From Polytrichum commune (lineage: Eukaryota; Streptophyta; Polytrichopsida; Polytrichales; Polytrichaceae), in assembly GCA_950295325.1 (NCBI GenBank), contig OX485809.1:16554001-16618000 (forward strand): a stretch of DNA of 64,000 bases, in the 5' to 3' direction. The position numbers and the translations under genes were made by a program. Below are positions 18,773 through 54,652 of the stretch, piece by piece; the stretch's first letter is position 1; each line of letters opens with the position of its first letter. The notes beneath the pieces are model-generated. The model ran no database searches and was not told the origin of the DNA. It was given only the letters and a program-made list of their open reading frames with translations.

Positions 18773-19811
18773 ATTGTTGGATGTGTTTTGTGCAAGTTGT
18801 GAGTGAGTGAGTGAGTGGTGCTGATGATGTAAGTAGTTGTGGCAGTCTGCCATGGGGTTAAGACGTGGGAACTTGGTTTTAGGTTGGGTTGGAATGGAAT
18901 AGGTGGTTAGATGATGAGGGGAGCAAGGGAAAACTGTGTCGGAGAATTGCGTGGAGTTGTGTCAGGGCAAGCTGGTGTAAGTTAGTAGGCGGCACTTTGA
19001 CATACTAGGGTGTGGGGTCACCGGGGTGGGCCATTGGGTGGGCGTTGTTTGTTTGTTTGTTTGTTTGTTTGTTTGTTTTCTAGTTTCTAGTGGGGAGGTG
19101 AGTTGGCAGCACTGGGCAAGTTTGTCGCCGCCCGCTTTGTCTTGTGAAGAAGTTTTCTTATGTAATTTAGGTGCCGTGGCGGTCGAAACTGTGCTATTGT
19201 GGAGCTCCAGAGCCAGGTGTAAAAAGGATGCGGTGAATTTGGATGTCAAGTAGATGTTAGTCGCATGCCAAACATGACAGTAAATGACGAGTAGTAGGTT
19301 ATGTGTGTAAGCACTCCCTTTTGAGAGGAGGGAAGGAAAGGAAATTCTCGGTAGTAGGGCACGGTTCATGTCGTTCTCTGCTTGTAAGTAGAATCTTCTA
19401 TCGAGGTGCAGTAAGTAAGCTACTTATGAGGTAGCTCTGTCGATGTGATGTGGAACTCATCACCACTCTTTTTGGCAGTGTTAGGTTCCGAGGGCTATGG
19501 TAGGGCATAATTGCATGCTTTGCCATCCCACATATCCAGTGTGTCTGGGATCCATCCTCCTAACCCTGACCTCGCCGTATAGGTACGGCATAAGTTAAGC
19601 GGTGCTGGAGCGCTGAAGCAGCCATTGACTATGGTGGCAAGCACATTGATGATGTAAGTTAATTGCATTTGTTGTGTGGGAGGGAAGCAGGTAGCTCATA
19701 CGAGGAGGAGTGGTGGTGGGAGGATGGGAAGAAGAAGGGGGAATTAAGATTAAGGAGCAGCAGCTGCTGGGAGGTTTGTTGCAACATCAGTAATAGCAAG
19801 GATAGGATAGG
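17893..19811 (+). promoter_or_regulatory. Upstream region of the MES-like gene, rich in microsatellites
   Basis: Between the last family-X copy and the MES start the sequence becomes more GC-rich. It carries simple repeats: CTT repeats near 18347-18370, TCCG repeats near 18525-18554, a GA run near 18737-18768, GAGT repeats near 18800, and TTTG repeats near 19046-19077. Pyrimidine-rich and GA repeats are common around plant transcription starts and leaders. I cannot place a TATA box or transcription start. A 174-codon open frame (17893-18417) ends in a poly-Leu stretch made by the CTT repeat and is probably leader or promoter, not protein. Confidence 0.5.
18441..18485 (+). other. Short upstream ORF with strong start context
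   Basis: GCCGCCATGGCGGCAGAAG matches a strong initiation context better than the main MES start does. The frame encodes 14 residues (MAAEVTTQLVLFRT) and then stops. If it is in the transcribed leader it could act as an upstream ORF. It could also be a short first coding exon of some other transcript. Whether it is transcribed cannot be read from sequence. Confidence 0.3.
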
Positions 19812-22800
19812 ATGGGGAACCAGATGGGGTGTATGGGTCCCAAGAAGAAGCGTAAGGGAAACAACGGCAAGGTGAACCTTGGAGGGATGCGAAAGCGTGG
19901 GGAGTGGGAGAATGAGCTGATCGAGCAGCAAGCCCTGGCTATGGCGTTACATCAGCAGCATAAAGCGCAGCTGCGGTTTGAACGCAGCCTCTCCCACCGT
20001 GACCCCTCTATAGCCCCGCCAAGGAAGAGCTACTCCGGTAAGCCCAGTAGCGGTAAATTGGACGAGTTCAAGCGGAGCGCTAGTACTCGTGCTCGCCATA
20101 TCGATGACCTCCTCCTGGAGCCCCGCCAGTTAGTCAATGGCTCCAAGGTTACACATCCATCTCTCTCTCTGTGTCTCGCTTTTTCTCACTCTTTCTCCGA
20201 CTTTCTCACACGTATGGCATCCATCCATACCAGCTCACACAGATTCTTCTCCTTGTTCTTAAGCGTTCGTCACTCTCAAACACGCATACTTAGAAATGTA
20301 GGTCTTCCCATTTCTCCTACATATATGGCATCCATGCTTCTGCTCAGACACATGGCGGGGGTTTGCAAATGTCTCGTTGTCTCTTTTGGGCGCCCTTCTC
20401 CTCCTCTTCTTCCTTGTCTTCCAATTTTGGTGAAATTGTAGGTCTCGCCAATTCTCTATGTCTGTCCTCATGTGTACACACCTCTAAGCAGCTGCGCCAG
20501 GTTATTCTTTTTGTGAATTTGTCACTCTCAAACATGTCTGCATAGAAATGTGGGTCTTCTCAATTCTCTTACACAAATGACAACCATACTTTTGCTCTGA
20601 CCACATAGCGGGGGTTTCAAATGGCCCGTTGTCTCTTTTTGGGGTCCTTCTCCTTCTCTTCTCCCTTGTCTTCCAATTTCGGTGAAATGTAGGTCTTGCC
20701 AATTTTCTAGATCTGTCCTCATGTATACACACACCTCTAAGCAGCCGGGTCAGGTTGTCTTTTCTCTGTTTATTACTCTCAAACACGCCTACATAGAAAT
20801 GTAGGTCTTCTTAATTCTCTTACACATATGGCATCTATGCTTTTGCTTAGACCGCATGGCGTGGGTTTGCAAATGTCTCGTGGTTTCTTTTCTGGCGCCT
20901 TCTCCACTTTTCCCTTGTCTTCCAATTTCCACGGAATGTAGGTCTTGCCAATTCTGTAGGTCTGTAGTCATGTGTACACACCTCCAAGCAGCTGCTTCAG
21001 GTTGTTTTTTGTGTGTTGGTCAATCTCAAACAGGCATACATAGAAATGTAGGTCTTCACAGTTCTCTTCCACATATGGCATCCATGCTTTTTGCTCAGAC
21101 AAATGGCAGGGGTTGCAAGCTCTTGTCTTTTTTTGGCGCCCTTCTCCTCCTCATTCCCCTTGTCTTCCAAGTTCACCACAAATGTAGGTCACCCTAATTC
21201 TGTAGGTATGTCCACACATCCGCAGATGAGGGTTGGCATGAGGTAAGTGGATGACTCCTCCGGGTAGAGATGCATTTCTCTTGCACAAAGCTGTACCTAC
21301 CTTGAAGCAGCTGCGTGAAGTTGTTCATCTACTTCTCCTTGTTCTCTCTCTGTTTTTCACTCTCAAACACACCTACATAGTACTGTAGGTCTCCCAATTG
21401 TCTTTGTCAGTCTGCATGCACCTATGGGAAAGGGTTGGCACGATTCATTTAGTATCTGCATAACAGGAGGATGCAATTTAATCGACAAAGAACAATTGGT
21501 GTTTCAATAGGAGCTCAGGCTCAGAGTTCAGATTTGTGGCATGTCTGTAGGACTTAGGGTGATTATACCAGTCAGCTGCTGCATGCTACATCCCCCCTGC
21601 CGATACAGTCCACAATTCACGGCTGATTTTCTTGAGCCTCACATTCTAATGGTGCCTAATTTGGATGTTAACCTGCTCTCTTTATGGCATTATACTCAAC
21701 TGATCACATTGCGACTGACATCTAGGTTTTCAGGCGAGTCGGTTTCTGTGTTCTGTATCCATTCTATTTATGATTTCTATTTGTCATACACATTGGGAAT
21801 GTGGTAAACCTGCAAATTAGACTTAGTTACTACAGCACATGTCCAAAGTAAATATCTTACCCATGCTGCATTTTTATTGTCTCATCTTCTTGGATGCAAT
21901 CTAAAACATGGTGGGTGCAAATGAACAAGTGACCAAGTAACGATTGGAAAACAATCCAACCAAGAGTTGGTATTGTGCTTTTCCTCAAAAGCATCCCATT
22001 CTGTTGATCCCTCTTTCTAACAGTCTTTGATTAGTATTTTCTACAGTTTGTTGCTATCAATAAGAAAGAGTGTCATCCTTGTTGCCTAATGTTGCTGAAG
22101 ATCATGAAATTTTGTTATGTTGATGTGTAAATTTGTCTGACGATAATTATTATTTGTATACGTGTTCAGGAAGGAGTTGTGAAAGCAACTCTGGAAACTA
22201 AGCATTTTGTGCTGGTGCATGGAGGCGGCCTCGGAGCATGGTGCTGGTACAAGTCTATTGCATTGCTGGAGGAGTCTGGATTGGTGGCAACTGCCATTGA
22301 CTTGAGTGGCTCTGGAATTGATTCTACAGATCCTAATCAAATTAAGACCTTGGCCCATTATGTGAAACCTCTTCTAGATCTTCTAGACAATCTGAGCGCC
22401 GGTGAGAAGGTCAGTCTTCTTTGGCATTATTCAGGAATCTGGAGACACTCATAGAAGTCTTCAGTGGTGTAGTGGGTGTACTCCCTACATAAGCATCTTA
22501 GAGAGTATGTACTTGGTGAGATTTTTTTTGGCAAGGGTTTAAAAGTTGAATCTTGGTAGATGCGAGAAGGCATTGTCCAAAGATAGGTAACAATGAGGTG
22601 CCAACTAATGAGAGCTTGCCACTTTGACTATGCTGGCTTTCATACATGTGAATAAGGACCTTGATTCTTATATTATTTTTGAAGCTAGAATAGAAAGAGA
22701 ACGTCCTTACATATGCTTAAGAATTCTATCCATACGAAACGAAATTCTTCACATTGTAGGTGTTGAGTCCAATCTTTTGAGTAAATAAACAAGGACAGTC

Positions 22801-23956
22801 TGATCCTGTAAAAAGCTCCAGAGTCTGCAGCTCAAGTTAAGCACGATGCCAAATTTCTCTCTTCTTAGTCAGAAGGAATTGCTAAGTGAAGGTTACTACT
22901 ATAGGCACATGCATACCACGTTGTCTACTAACATTAGGCCTGTCATTGTAGGTGATTTTAGTGGCACACAACATCGGTGGTGCATGTATATCATATGCTA
23001 TGGAGTGCTACCCTAATAAAATAGCAAAAGCTATTTTTGTGGCAGCTGCCATGATTGCCGATGGCCAAAGGGCATTTGATGTATTTGCACAGCAGGTATG
23101 TCAGGATCAACCTTGATCTTCTAATTTCCTCATTGGTCACATATCATGTCTGATTGAGGTCTGTCCTTTTGCACAAGGAGTGGTAATTGGGAGATAGGTA
23201 TCACACCAAACTTCCTTCCCTTGTTACTATTTCTTAGATTTTTTAAAAATGAGCTTTGTGCACTCCGGTGACTAAAGTATAACCTATTTTGTTGTTTCCT
23301 GGGAGCAGGAGAAAACAGAGGAAGACCTTATGCCGAAGGCTCAGAAGTTTTTGTATGGGAATGGAACCTCTTGTCCACCCACTGCAGTTGAACTCGACAG
23401 AAACATAGTTAAAGATTTGTTTTTCAATGTTAGCCCGAGCAAGGTATTGTTGATGTCTTATATATTACATGAATTGTTCATCTTGATGTGCTCTTTGTTC
23501 CAGTGTCACAGTTCATAATATGTAGAACCTGTAAATGCAATACATGTCATTGTGGCATTTGAGTCTTTCCTTCCTTAATCAAGAATTACATATGTAGGAT
23601 ATTTTGGTTTTAAATTGGATGTATGTTAATAGAACAACATTTACAGGTTTCTGACAATATTTTTGTTATTGATGCAGGATGTTGCACTAGCAACAGTATC
23701 AATGAGGCCCATCCCATTTGCACCAGCCATGGAGAAAGTCACCTTAACTCCAGAGAAGTATGGAACCGTCCGACGCTTTTATATAGAAACAACGGAGGAC
23801 CAAGCATTGTCTTCCGAAGCACAACGGAACATCATCAATCAAAACCCCCCTGAGCAGGTCTTTACATTGAAAGGCAGTGACCATTCTCCTTTTTTCTCCA
23901 AGCCTCAATCATTACATAAAATCCTAGTTGACATTGCATTGCTTGATGCAAAGTAG
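19812..23956 (+). CDS. MES: Methylesterase-family alpha/beta hydrolase (MES11-15 type) with Asn in place of the catalytic Ser
   Basis: Five exons, all phase 0: 19812-20147, 22170-22409, 22952-23095, 23309-23443 and 23678-23956, giving 377 residues. Residues 1-112 form a basic extension (MGNQMGC, PKKKRK, FKRSASTRARHID), as in the long MES11-15 group; shorter relatives such as SABP2 lack it. MGN plus a nearby Cys could allow N-myristoylation and palmitoylation. The hydrolase core begins near 113 with the oxyanion motif HGGGLGAWCW (His129). The nucleophile elbow reads VAHNIGGACISYAME, with Asn199 where active members have Ser. Asp326 (TTEDQA) and His354 (GSDHSPF) are kept. Active MES enzymes demethylate methyl salicylate, methyl jasmonate or methyl-IAA. 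From memory, some Arabidopsis members of this group have Asp at the Ser position, so this may be a non-catalytic binding protein. Intron 1 holds a tandem array. The gene looks intact. Confidence 0.93.
20265..21400. repeat. Tandem array of about 250-bp units in MES intron 1
   Basis: Copies start at TCTCAAACA-type sequence near 20275, 20527, 20777, 21024 and 21362. The first three spacings are 252, 250 and 247 bp. Each unit contains AGAAATGTAGGTCTTC, a CATGGCGGGGGTTTGCAA-like segment, CCTTGTCTTCCAATTT and CACCTCTAAGCAGCTGC. The last spacing is longer and the fifth copy is partial. Open frames on either strand here are shadows of the unit. Confidence 0.9.
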
Positions 23957-38255: not shown

Positions 38256-41136
38256 TGACTCAACAATATAATAAATAGAGGTCATAAAATACCATAGTAC
38301 AAATCATTGAGATAAATTTCAATCTAAAAGCTATTGCATAATAATAGGAGTAGAGATAAGATTGCACAAGCATAGACACATACACAAAGGCATATGAACA
38401 AAGCTTGGAGTGAGATCATCTCATGCATTCCTTGCTTTGCCTTTTATTGCTTTTCTTCTTCTCATTGGTTCATACAAAAAATATGGGATAACTCTTATCC
38501 CTCCTCAGACTAGCATTGTAGCCTTATTCTAACTTTATTCTTTCTTATGCCTCTTCCCTTACATTTTTTATTGACTACAAGCAATCTAATGCTCTACCTT
38601 CTACAAAAGTTTGGTTAATGAAAGTATTGTTGTAATACCAAGGTTGCCGTAATATCGAGGGCCATGTTATCAAGATAGGATTGAATGTTGAAGTTAACAT
38701 AGTAGTTCATGTATCATTATTCACCTCTTCTTTCAATAGTGGGCCCCAATGAAAGTATCATTTTATGATACACATGAAAATAATTGCACATATCAATGTA
38801 GTCAATTCCAAGATTGTGAGTACATGTTCTAAGGATAAAGAAGAGGCATGCAAGAAAGGAATAAAATAATGAAGGAATACAAAACACATGGAATTTGAAC
38901 TCTTAGGGATTCTTTAGACCATGAACCATGAAGTTGTCCCAAGGCCCTATAAAACATGTGATCAGTTGTTGAACTCATCCCGGGACTACTTCGGTGTACA
39001 CCAAGAAAAAAAATGTCAGAGTGACCATGGAGTTTGAGGTTCCCAAAAGACATATTTTAAGGCTTGCATTATCAACTGACATGGTCTGATGGGTTTTGTG
39101 GTGGGAGAGGCAGGGGCTCATGGCAAAGAAATATTGCTATATTGATTTTTTAATGATGTTTTCTTAGAGAAAAGAAGACAAAGACAAGAAAACGCAAGAG
39201 AATGGTCAAACTTGAATTACTTTTCAAAACTGCCCTTTTTGGGCATATATTAATAATATCAACACATGATCATTCCTCTTGGTCCACATTTGATTTGCAG
39301 CTAGTGAGAGACCCAAAGGCTTTGTAAATTGATTTTTTAAGAAATTCCACCATGAAAGTTGGACCACCAAGCCGGACCAAAGAAATGAACAAGTTAAGGT
39401 TGCTTCCAAAGGTCATGAGCAGTGGAAATCTGAATATAGTAGTTGAACTCAAGTTTTGAGTCCTTTCCCCAACCTCCCTTTCCTCCTAGGACCTCCTACT
39501 ACCTAGGGTTTAGGGTTTAGGGTTTAGGGTTTAGATTTGAAAACCTTTCAAGAGTCTACATGATTATTTTTTGAAAATTAAAAAATTTAGATGCAACCCA
39601 ATGAATTTTTCACAATAATTTAAAGAAGTTTAAATAGATTGAAATAATCCCAAAAATTCCATAGATATGAAAACCTATAATGATTCTATGTAATTGTATT
39701 TTTAAACAAACGAATTTCATATGCAACCTACAAATATTTGCAAAGTATATAGTAATTGTGTACAATAACTTTATATAATAAGTACGTACAATAATCATGT
39801 GCAGTAACTAAGTGAGTAATTCCCTCACCCAATAACTACATTACGTACTAATTATGTGCACATGTGATGTAAGTGGAGTTGATTGCTGAGGGCTTGGTTT
39901 GAGACCCATGAGGTCTTGGGTACAAGCCCCCTTGCCATCCATTTCTCCTAGGCTAGCATCTTAAGCACTTTGGAAGTGCCATGTTATGCCCTACCTACTA
40001 GTAGATAAGACTACTTACTATGTATGTATATTTAGATATTAAAGTTTGTATAGTAAAATTCAGCTTACTAAAATCAAAACAAAAAATAATGGAAGCGGGT
40101 CTTGTGGCACAGGTTGTCAGAATATTTGTAATGTAATCAAATTTAATAATAAAGGGGAAGTGGGTCCTTCAGCATAGGGTGTCCATAATATATGTAATAT
40201 AATATACTTACCACATAAAAAGCATGAAAATGACTATGGTCATTACGACATGACCCTTACGATAGCTATTTGACTAGAGGTGTCATTTTTGGTCACTATA
40301 TTGACTATAGTCATATTAGCCATTTTCTACTAAAAATGGAGTAATAATTAATGTCTCCTTGGCCCTACTACCCTACTACTGATGGCTCTTTTGAACACTT
40401 GGCTTCCACACATTTTTTTCCTGTGTCAAAATCTACTCTTTTGGACCACTATTGGAGCCATTTGTCATTTGGGCCACCATTGACTTTGTGCTATTAATCA
40501 TCTAGATTATAATCACATTCTTGTGGCACATGATGCCGTCTTGATGTTTTGTTGGCCACTGTGAAAGGTCTATGAAGTTTTTGTTATATTTTTGGCTACT
40601 TATTAGATATAGATTCCATTCAAGTTTGCTCATAATAACTAGAATCCATGTATATTATTGAATGTACAATATAAAGGAACTTATGTTATTTCTATGTTTA
40701 ATTTAGAGATCTTCAAATAGTGATCTCTTTCCCCTCCTCCAAATTGTTGTATTTTTGGCTACTCATTCAAGTGTACACACTAGATCCCATGTTTATTATG
40801 GATTATTCCTCAAGGAATGTTCTATCTTTGTTTAGTTTTGAAGATCTTATAGATCTAGATGTGAGTCACCTTCCTAAGTAATTACTACCGTGAAAGAGAG
40901 GGAATTACCACATACAAAGGCCGTCTTCCATTCATCCAACATAGAAGCACTGAGATAGTTTATAGTCCATACCCCAAATTAGTCTCTTCCAAATCATTGG
41001 AGATGAATCCGCCAAAAATCCATAAGGGACAAAGTTTTTATGGTGGATGATGAGAGGTACTTTACTTGGTAGATTCTTATATTATAAGGTGAAAGCAGCC
41101 TTCACATATAGAGTGCTTCAAAGCCCGCCCTTTGAA
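38256..41136. other. Gene-free stretch
   Basis: Low-complexity, AT-rich sequence. A tRNA-like head (GGGCTTGGTTTGAGACC then GGGTACAAGCCC) near 39885-39935 may be an old SINE. A telomere-type repeat is listed separately. No gene is supported. Confidence 0.45.
39503..39534 (+). repeat. Interstitial telomeric repeat (TTTAGGG)n
   Basis: About four perfect head-to-tail copies of the plant telomere unit lie here, with nothing telomeric on either side. Confidence 0.95.
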
Positions 41137-49977: not shown

Positions 49978-52349
49978 TTTTTGGGGTGGCTAAATATAGC
50001 CACATGACGAAAAGTTAGCAGAGGTGACGAAAAGCTATAAGGGTCTAGGGCCGCCTCCCAGTCGGACAGTCGCCACTCTGTCCACTCGCCTCCCACCACC
50101 CTCGCCACTCTGCGCCATGATAACTCCGCCGTGCTTGATGTGTCGCCCTGCCATCTCACTTCGCCGCGAATGTGACCTCTGAGGTGGCGCCACATCGCGC
50201 CCCGCCACTCTCCCCACTTCGACTCCATCGCCAGCTATGTAATCCCACTCTCCAGTGTTTCGCCCAGTAATTCTGCCAACTTTCCAGTAATTCGCCTGTT
50301 TTGCGGCACTAATTACAGCCTTGGCGCCAGTAACTTATGCCCTCCTTACTGCTTTCATCGCCATCTTCGCCAGTAACTTATGCCCTCCTTACTGCTTTCA
50401 TCGCCATCTTTTGAGCTTTGGGTTGAACCTGCAATATCTCATTGGCTAATGGAGACATTCCATTCACATTTCATTCACCCTGCTTCTTGAGTCTTGGAAG
50501 GGTGTTGTCGCAATCCGTTGAGGGTTTCATTCATGAGAGCAAGGAGTGGGAGGAGTGGTGGAGTGAGACACTGAGAGCAAGGAGCCAGGAGTGCTGCTTT
50601 GAGCTTTGATTGTGTGCATTGTGCAACCTGTACTCCGCATTGTGCAACCTGCAGCCTGCAATGGAGATTTGCGGAACCACTGAACTTACTATCTGGGAGA
50701 CTCAAAACCCTCCATCCCCCAAGCTTTTATATGATTTCAGTTTGTCTTTTCCTGCTGATTGTGTTTGTTCAATCTTGCTGAAGGGTATTGTTGTTCAATC
50801 TCTGCTCATTGTGTTTGATCAATCTTGCTAATTGTGTGTTTGATCAATCTTGCATTTGTGTGTTGTGTGTTTGAGCAATCTTGGTGATTGCTGGTCGATC
50901 TTGGTCACCTGAGGGTTGTTGATCTTGGTCACCTGAGATCTTGGTGAACAATCTTAGTGATTGCTGGTCGATCTTGGTCACCTGAGATTTTGGTGATTGC
51001 TAGTCGATGTTGGTCACCTGGTGATTGCTGGGATGGAGCGGATCGCCAGGGCAAAGCGGAACTCCGTTCTTGAGCTTTATTTCGCGTCTTCTCAGAACGC
51101 TAATGACCCTGGTCCTTTGGAATTGCCCTCTGCCCGCAAATGTGCTAGGTTTACCCGTGATGCAGAGGCATCCTCATCCGGCAGCAAGGTAAGTAGCAAT
51201 CCATGTATTACTCCGCCCCGTGCCAATGCCGCAGTGAAGCTGATTTGCCCTGGTGGCCTCCCTGAGCCTGCCATCTCCTCAATTGGGTCAGATGTTGTTG
51301 AAATAATTGATGTCACCTCGGATGCTCCAGTTGCTACCCCCTGTAAGGCAAAAAAAAAAAAACAAATGAGGTATCCCGAAAGTGTCAGGATGCATGGGCC
51401 ATCGCCCATCCTTGGGCTGAAATGCTTCGAGGTGGTGATGGAATTGTGGATAGAGTGAAATGCATAGTCTGCAGTCATGTGAAAGGTCGTGAGGTGACCA
51501 TGGGAGCCAAATCCGACACGTTGGAAAAACATGCTGGTAAGAGACAAGCAAAATCAGATTTGCCACATATTAATGTAAAAAAAGATGAGTTTTATGTCAA
51601 CAAAAAATGCGGTCACCTGAGGGCTGCGGCATCTTATAGTTCTCAGAGCCAGGGCCACCCTAGTGTGTTGCAACAAGTAAAACAATTGCATTTTCTTTAT
51701 GTGCTTGCATGTTGCCGTTATTGTTGCATTTATTGCCACCATTCTTTGCTAACCCTTTTTGTTGTTTTTATTGCTGCCTACATGTTTGGGTGTGGTTTGC
51801 AATGACTAACTTGGTGGGTGTATGGCAGGTGCAAAAGGAATTCAAGGGTGATAGAGCTCGGAAGATCAACCAGTTTGCAACCGTGTTTCACCTCTTGCAA
51901 ACTGGGCGTCCGATGCTCGAGTATGAGAGCATAAAGAGACTTTATCAATTTCTGAAGATGCCACATTTGAGCATCAAGCATTGGTCGGATAATAGCGGCT
52001 GGATGATCGCTGAATACTTGCATGCTCAAGTCATGAGACGAGCAAAGGAGGTTCTGGCATCTGCACACTACATTGCGGTAACCTGTGATGAGGTGACAAC
52101 TGTGGACAATCAGTCATGGATTTCTATCCATGCCTACTATGTGCATGACTTCTACAGGCAGCCACTGCTTGTGTCCCTTGAGCGGCTAACTGAGGGCGCA
52201 TCCGCTGGTCCTTTGGCAGCGGTGATTGTTGATGCACTCGCCACCCATGGTGGTCTTGATAAGGATGACCTTCGAAAGAAGTTCACGTCCTTCGGGGCAA
52301 ACAGAGCTTTTGTCTTTCAGGTAAGCTAAACCCCCTAAACCTTTCTTGC

Positions 52350-52760
52350 TTGTTCATTTCAGATTGCTTGTTCATTTCAAATTCCTTGTTCATTTCAGAT
52401 TGCTTATTCATTTCAGATTGCTTGTTCATTTCATATTGCTTGTTCATTTCAGATTGCTTGTTCATTTCAGATTGCTTGTTCATTTCAGATTGTTTGTTCA
52501 TTTCAGATTGCATTTGTGTGTTCATTTCAGATTGCAGTTGCTAGTTCATATCAGATTGCAGTTGCTAGTTCATATCAGATTTCAGTTTATTTGTGTATGT
52601 GATTGCATTTGTGTATGTATCAATTTCAGATTGCAGTTGCTTGTTCATATCAGATTGCAGTTGCTTGTTCATTTCAGATTGCAGTTGCTTGTTCATATCA
52701 GATTGCAATTGTTTGTTCATTTCAGATTGCAGTTGCTTGTTCATCTCATGTATGTGTGGG
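52350..52760. repeat. 18-bp minisatellite made of 3' splice-site-like units
   Basis: About nine copies of TTGTTCATTTCAGATTGC lie head to tail at 52350-52520. Longer variants (TTCATATCAGATTGCAGTTG) then continue to the true acceptor near 52770. Each unit contains TTCATTTCAG, a good 3' splice-site sequence. Because 18 is divisible by 3, all frames stay open, which produces repetitive open frames on both strands. Confidence 0.92.
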
Positions 52761-53649
52761 ATGTGAGCAGGGGTCCGGGGGGGGGGGGTGTGACAAAGCT
52801 TCTACAGGATACCATTGCTTCGCACATGCATGGGGTCCACTGTGTAAGCCACAGGACCAACCTTGCTGTGAAGGAGTTGTCTCATTTGCCAGTCATTCAG
52901 AAAATTGAGAACATGCTCCATGTGTTGCACAAGTACTTCGCTCGGAGCCCAAAACGACATATTGAGTTCACAAAGCTAGCAGAGGTTATGGAGACTAAGG
53001 GTCTCAAGATTCTCATAGATGTAAAAACAAGTTGGCTAAGCATGGTTTCACCTCTGAAACGTGTCATGAGCGAATATCGGACCTTAATTCAAAAAATGCA
53101 AGAAGATAGTAAGGATGGCACCACCCCGCATGCATCGCGGGAGGTGGCAAAGACTAACTTCTCTTTGCTTGTGGATGTCTCAGTTCCCATTGCACTTACG
53201 TGCTTTCTACCATTGCTTGAGACAATGCACTACTTGGTGAAATTTTCCCAGCAGCGGGATATATTCATCTGTGACTACCTTGGAGCAGTCAAGGTGTGCC
53301 AAGGACAGCTGTATACGTTGTATTCTGACCCACAAACTTCTTTTCGATCCGATGCTTTTAGAGAGATGACCGACCTCTTAGGGTGTCAGCATCACACCAT
53401 CTCCATGGTTTGGGAGACCTCAGTGTTGGACTTGAACGAGTCTGGCGAGCATCTTGCATTCAATTGCGGATAGCACACTTACCCTGCTACAATATTGGAC
53501 ACCCTCGGCAGACCCCAACAAGTCTCACGTGAGGCTCTGACCACAGTCGTAGATGAGGTGAAATCTCTCTGCCAAGGTAAACACGAGCCCCTTCTTTCTT
53601 GATTTTTGTGCTTGAATGTTTCTTAATTTTTGTGATTGAATTTTTGTTG

Positions 53650-53780
53650 ATCTGATGTATGTGCAGGGGCTATGAATCTGATGTATGTGCAGGGGTTTTG
53701 AATCTGATGTATGTGCAGGGGCTTTGAATATGATGTATGTGCAGGGGCTGATATTTGTGAACCTGATGTATGTGCAGGGG
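53650..53780. repeat. About 27-bp minisatellite of acceptor-like units
   Basis: Five copies of TGATGTATGTGCAGGGG occur between 53650 and 53780. The last supplies the acceptor for the final exon. Units are spaced about 26-33 bp. Confidence 0.92.
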
Positions 53781-54652
53781 CTGCCGCAAGTCTAATTGCG
53801 GAGTTGTCAAGCCGATTCCCCGCATCAAGTCTAATGGATGCACTGGGAGTGGTGTACCCCCAATATTGGCTGCAGCCCCATGCAGAGGAGCTTTTTGAGG
53901 GTCACTTTGCCATTCTGAAAAACCATTATTGCTATGAGAGAAAAATTGGTGATGTATATTCGCCTCCTGTACTAGACCTCTCAGCCTTGAATCACGAATG
54001 TAGCCAGTTCAAAGGGGCTATGAAAGCCAATGCGGCTGATGCCCTTCAGAAACCCATCACCTTGAACCCTCTGACAAAATTGTGGCGGACATTGTCTATG
54101 AGCATGGTCCTGAAGAAGCATTTCAGGGAATGGTTCAAGGTGGCGGAACTTGCCGCCGTCTAGGTTCTTGGTTCAGTGGAGGATGAAAGAACCTTCTCCA
54201 CAGTCGCATTCTCTAAATCGAAGCTTCGCAACTGCTTGAGTGAGCACCTTCCCGCATGTGTGGGTGTCTACAGCCAAAATTTCTACCAATTGGAGGATTT
54301 CCCATTTGACAAAGTCTATGATGAGTGGCATGCAGATAGAAGGAGGCAGCCAGACTGTTAACGATGTGATGCATGCCTCCATGTAGAAATGCAATTTTGA
54401 TTATGCAGTTTGTGTAGCCATGTTCTTAAATTCCCTAGGATGAACTACCGCAGCTCTGTGATGTTGCGTCGTTGTAGATGTTTACCTCCAGGATTAAGTC
54501 TTCTACCGATTTTGTTGTATTGCTCACTTGGTTGCATTATGGTTTGATGTTTGTGTATTGGTTCAATTTGGTTGGTCTTTCTATTGGCAACAGGTCTCTT
54601 CGCGGCCCCTTATACCATTTCGTTATGTGGCTATTTTTATCCACCCCAAAAA

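Follow-up and report, generated by a model that had tools for sequence, protein, structure and literature searches.

An intact gene of the plant methylesterase (MES) family encodes asparagine instead of serine at the position of the catalytic nucleophile. We put the probability at about one half that its product is a retooled non-esterase, perhaps held at a membrane, that would work by binding a ligand. The gene lies in the 64-kb stretch of DNA that was analysed, called the window below, and all coordinates are positions in that window. Rebuilt from the window sequence, it comprises five exons on the + strand between 19812 and 23956, with the following features:

19812..20147, + strand: exon 1, residues 1-112; MGNQMGC...KKKRK at the head of an N-terminal extension, followed by a segment rich in Ser and Arg
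22170..22409, + strand: exon 2, residues 113-192; the hydrolase domain begins here, with the oxyanion-side motif HGGGLGAW and its Gly130
22952..23095, + strand: exon 3, residues 193-240; carries AHNIGG, the nucleophile elbow
22970..22972, + strand: codon AAC for Asn199 at the nucleophile position (from translation and alignment)
23309..23443, + strand: exon 4, residues 241-285
23678..23956, + strand: exon 5, residues 286-377 and the stop codon
23798..23800, + strand: codon GAC for Asp326, the triad acid, kept (from alignment with relatives)
23882..23884, + strand: codon CAT for His354, the triad base, kept (from alignment with relatives)

The spliced frame has 377 codons, with start and stop present and no internal stops. 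Its four introns (2022, 542, 213 and 234 bases long) are all GT-AG and all in phase 0, and all eight splice sites are intact. The stop-to-stop frame of exon 1 starts at 19806, so there is an in-frame stop just upstream of that exon. Exon 3, which translates as VILVAHNIGGACISYAMECYPNKIAKAIFVAAAMIADGQRAFDVFAQQ, sits exactly where the original prediction had placed it, and the open frame agrees with its description of the gene as free of stops. Misassignment of exons was considered and ruled out: the domain aligns over its whole length, and every splice site is GT-AG. Intron 1 holds a degenerate tandem repeat of ~252 bp in 3.8 copies (20265-21213).

By homology that exceeds chance by a wide margin, the product is a member of the plant MES family, as had been proposed. 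The hydrolase domain matches Pfam Abhydrolase_6 (2.2e-16), and 37 distinct PDB sequences pass a threshold of 0.001 in comparison with the protein. The best solved relatives are MKS1 (6e-51), the probable pheophorbidase 5hk8 (1.3e-47), which we take to be MES16, and SABP2 (8.7e-43). Polyneuridine aldehyde esterase and hydroxynitrile lyases come next after SABP2, and the range from MKS1 to polyneuridine aldehyde esterase is 6e-51 to 5.4e-40. A search for relatives in IMG/VR, made with the hydrolase domain and again with exon 2, confirmed none.

In HMMER alignments, the AHNIGG of the window protein falls opposite GHSLGG in SABP2, GHSFGG in polyneuridine aldehyde esterase, GHSMGG in a bacterial hydrolase, GHALGG in MKS1 and GHSIGG in 5hk8. 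These pairings identify Asn199 as the catalytic nucleophile position. The elbow thus has no serine in a GXSXG motif, nor does it have the aspartate of Asp-nucleophile hydrolases; the gene encodes Asn. The AAC that had been noticed at the nucleophile codon was found again at 22970-22972, as residue 199, and it is one base away from the serine codon AGC and one base away from the aspartate codon GAC. The Asp and His of the methylesterase triad, said earlier to be intact, are both present: the acid and base residues of SABP2 line up with Asp326 (in TTEDQAL) and His354 (in GSDHSPFF), respectively. Compared with SABP2, polyneuridine aldehyde esterase and 5hk8, the window protein shares the fold, the His and Asp positions and the oxyanion-side glycine, but has Asn where these proteins have Ser in GHSxGG.

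A serine esterase needs the serine hydroxyl to form its acyl-enzyme, and asparagine cannot provide one. With Asn199 in place of that hydroxyl, methyl-ester hydrolysis of the MES type is unlikely, as is any serine acyl-enzyme mechanism. Judging from the change of nucleophile, the protein has probably lost the usual ester cleavage.

How unusual the elbow is can be seen from a column comparison with ten relatives: MKS1, 5hk8, SABP2 and seven bacterial loci. The three PDB relatives in it are 3 of the 37 matches, namely those with a printed alignment, with variants of MKS1 counted once. Nineteen columns agree in at least nine of the ten relatives, and the window protein keeps 17 of them, including Gly130, His198, Gly201, Gly202, Asp326 and His354. 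Only two columns are changed: Ala replaces Gly at 197, and Asn replaces Ser at 199, where MKS1 has Ala. In a broader bacterial set, which shows the background in the wider family and not the state in plant orthologues, Ser occupies the nucleophile column in 29 of 29 readable loci, out of 32 distinct ones. This set began as 33 loci, from which L004 was left out as a duplicate of L001; L016, L026 and L031 are unreadable at the column. Thirty of the 33 are a capped choice of the places that scored best, in a search where 113 of 386 genomes gave a match at 0.001, and three came from another search. Some are weak matches and general hydrolases; by origin, 30 of the 32 come from the phylum of the L001 cyanobacterium and two from Legionella species. 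Since 7 of the 29 readable loci have Ala where the window protein has Ala197, that change is nothing unusual, and the true departure is Asn199.

Within the plant family, the window protein was compared with Arabidopsis MES11, which we take to carry Asp at the nucleophile position, in GHDFGG; this agrees with the original statement that some Arabidopsis members of MES11-15 have Asp there. The MES11 sequence used is no database sequence, so that what follows is a lead: identity with the window protein is 158 of 264 aligned residues in exons 2-5 and, for exon 1, 39 of 97, both proteins start with MGN and a basic run, and within an otherwise identical GEKVILV-GGACISYAME stretch the window protein differs at Ala197, Asn199 and Ile200. 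As a lead, this identity hints at long-term constraint and at kinship with MES11-15. The gene looks like one of the MES11-15 type, on the strength of its long N-terminal extension with an MGN start and basic run, its four phase-0 introns and this MES11 comparison; it differs from the MES11 sequence used in having AHNIGG (Asn) rather than GHDFGG (Asp).

In peach, MES genes are described as having four conserved phase-0 introns (I-4, I-6, I-7 and I-9), with I-9 found only in group 3 (PMC6884059). The four phase-0 introns of the window gene fit these in number and phase, the two features compared, and peach group 3 presumably corresponds to MES11-15. The same survey states that all CXE and MES members contain GXSXG (PMC6884059); if this holds strictly for the matching group, the Asn199 gene would be an oddity, and the statement does not fit Asp or Asn as the rule there. 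Chaffin et al. 2024 divide MES proteins into three groups (PMC11644291). Their Group I, with 66 members, occurs in 21 of the 21 land plants surveyed; it has no characterised member, and its standing as a true MES group is queried by the authors (PMC11644291). The window gene probably belongs to Group I, if, as we infer, MES11-15 and Group I are the same. No Asn or Asp elbow variant of MES11-15 is stated in the portion of the literature that was covered; there, MES13 is listed among the qRT-PCR genes of an LPS-response study, and MES11 is named in one other paper only as a block boundary.

What might such a protein do? The pocket and the fold of an alpha/beta-hydrolase are retained, as are His354, Asp326 and the glycines on the oxyanion side, with Asn199 replacing the serine of the acyl-enzyme. 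In the reading that we favour, a retooled non-esterase that works by binding, the MES mechanism would no longer serve to cleave methyl esters. Instead, the pocket, perhaps held at a membrane through a lipid-anchor-like N-terminus, would bind a small ester or carboxylic acid, and contacts with other proteins would relay the bound state, in the manner of ABHD5 with its own ligands and partners. Tight binding has been described in the family, in that SABP2 binds its own product, salicylic acid, tightly (PMC12988820).

Loss of the nucleophilic serine has precedents both inside the family, in ShMKS1 (Ala), and outside it, in ABHD5 (Asn). Animal ABHD5, or CGI-58, has Asn153 at the nucleophile position (PMC9694394) and activates a different lipase (PMC9694394, PMC5314347). 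Like the window protein, it is an alpha/beta-hydrolase that keeps the predicted Asp and His, but it comes from another branch of the superfamily and acts on lipid droplets, and its HX4D motif at the catalytic His is absent from the window protein (HSPFFS). According to a review, acyltransferase and protease activities have also been claimed for ABHD5 (PMC9694394), so the precedent is not purely non-catalytic.

The retained His and Asp do not discriminate between binding and catalysis, and two catalytic explanations have to be weighed. One, which we consider unlikely, is a non-hydrolytic enzyme in which the His354-Asp326 pair and the oxyanion hole would catalyse, with no covalent intermediate, the reaction of a lyase, decarboxylase or cyclase, while Asn199 would orient substrate or water through hydrogen bonds. 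The pair and Gly130 are indeed kept, and MKS1, the top-scoring solved relative, is instructive: ShMKS1 from Solanum habrochaites functions with an Ala-His-Asn triad, decarboxylating 3-keto acids, a non-esterase activity (PMC11644291). Likewise, the S83A mutant of an iridoid cyclase is described as having no esterase activity and some cyclase activity left, with H238A inactive (PMC12626888). ShMKS1 and the window protein share the MES-family fold and the loss of the nucleophile serine. However, the special residues of MKS1 are absent here, with Gly130 (in HG) for the MKS1 Thr (in HT) and Asp326 for the MKS1 Asn, and the solved ShMKS1 chain is without the long N-terminal extension. An MKS1-type enzyme in the strict sense is therefore ruled out by the combination Asn-His-Asp, as opposed to Ala-His-Asn. 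A hydroxynitrile lyase is also ruled out: such enzymes have Lys236 after the catalytic His, and the equivalent residue after His354 is Ser355 (a placement made with no hydroxynitrile lyase in the column alignment).

The other catalytic explanation, which strikes us as highly improbable, is a hydrolase that matures itself. Asn199 would be converted to Asp, or Asn would itself attack, and the protein would act as an Asp-nucleophile enzyme similar to epoxide hydrolases or haloalkane dehalogenases. The Asp presumed for MES11, in GHDFGG, is in keeping with this, as are the retained His354 and Asp326, which could activate water. Reactivation of Asn mutants is known from alpha/beta-hydrolase dehalogenases and epoxide hydrolases. 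Also in its favour, in L-2-haloacid dehalogenase, an enzyme of a different fold, the mutant with Asn for the Asp nucleophile retains some activity, which is explained either by deamidation or by Asn acting as a weaker nucleophile (PMC4899344). This was the only case of Asp-to-Asn nucleophile deamidation in the literature searched, with no mention in the passages covered of PMC6100074 and PMC7034887. Against it, that literature yielded no natural case, and Asn199 is followed by Ile200, a neighbour that is not conducive to spontaneous deamidation.

Decay of the gene was weighed with a neutral simulation. Four thousand runs were made per setting, with survival defined as preservation of the start, the stop, the frame and the 16 splice-site bases. 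With indels at 0.1 per substitution, 24% of runs survived a divergence of 1%, 7% one of 2% and 0.2% one of 5%; without indels, the shares were 53%, 30% and 5%, respectively. Because simulated survival falls with divergence, the intact gene speaks against old decay; the intact frame leaves room for a loss so recent that divergence since then is no more than a few percent. Thus, the original argument that an intact gene tells against decay holds for old decay and does not extend to recent loss. Selection for a non-esterase role is accordingly a hypothesis, as are the ligand binding, decoy action and Asn-to-Asp conversion that were proposed with it.

Recent loss of constraint would make the gene a young, still open, non-functional copy; alternatively, AAC could stand in error for a codon of Ser or Asp, through a fault in sequencing or assembly. 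Together we regard these as improbable. An error or recent mutation would need just the one base that separates AAC from AGC or GAC, and the survival values at 1% and 2% divergence, with or without indels, allow for a young open copy. In addition, tblastn of the 377-residue protein against the 64-kb window found no second MES copy. On the opposite side are the low survival at 5% divergence, in either setting, the 17 of 19 near-invariant columns kept, and the eight intact splice sites.

The suggestion of a membrane location, part of the binding reading, comes from the 112-residue first exon, which begins MGNQMGC and carries KKKRK (19812-19860). No Pfam family matched this extension. MGNQMGC fits the N-myristoylation consensus as a plausible start for a lipid anchor, and together with KKKRK it may form a putative lipid and polybasic membrane anchor. 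In contrast, databases label MES11-15 as chloroplastic.

On a larger scale, one could imagine that the deeply conserved Group I MES proteins are non-esterases in general, that their serine was lost early with the Asn codon AAC bridging AGC and GAC, and that the window protein is membrane-anchored and either self-maturing, through an Asn that becomes an Asp nucleophile, or a sensor of a methylated hormone. We think this combination very unlikely as a whole. Being one base from each of AGC and GAC, AAC could bridge a Ser ancestor and the Asp that we assume for MES11. More modestly, a member that lacks the serine is a concrete reason to doubt the esterase name, which was given to the group by homology, and it narrows the esterase question in Group I to a single residue, a single activity assay and a single measurement of mass.

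Elsewhere in the window, overlapping long reading frames occupy 50997-54163, with tandem repeats of 18-24 bp inside one frame; presumably they resemble a hAT-type or ZNF862-like transposase. These frames gave no Pfam match at 0.01, and two pieces of them gave only chance-level matches. Scans of the 64-kb window for tRNAs and against Rfam gave no matches. A short interstitial array of TAGGGTT, which we take to be the plant telomere repeat, is found at 39504-39534 in 4.4 copies; with the introns and the MES gene, it suggests that the DNA comes from a plant. A tandem array with a unit of ~224 bp in 4.1 copies lies at 143-1065.
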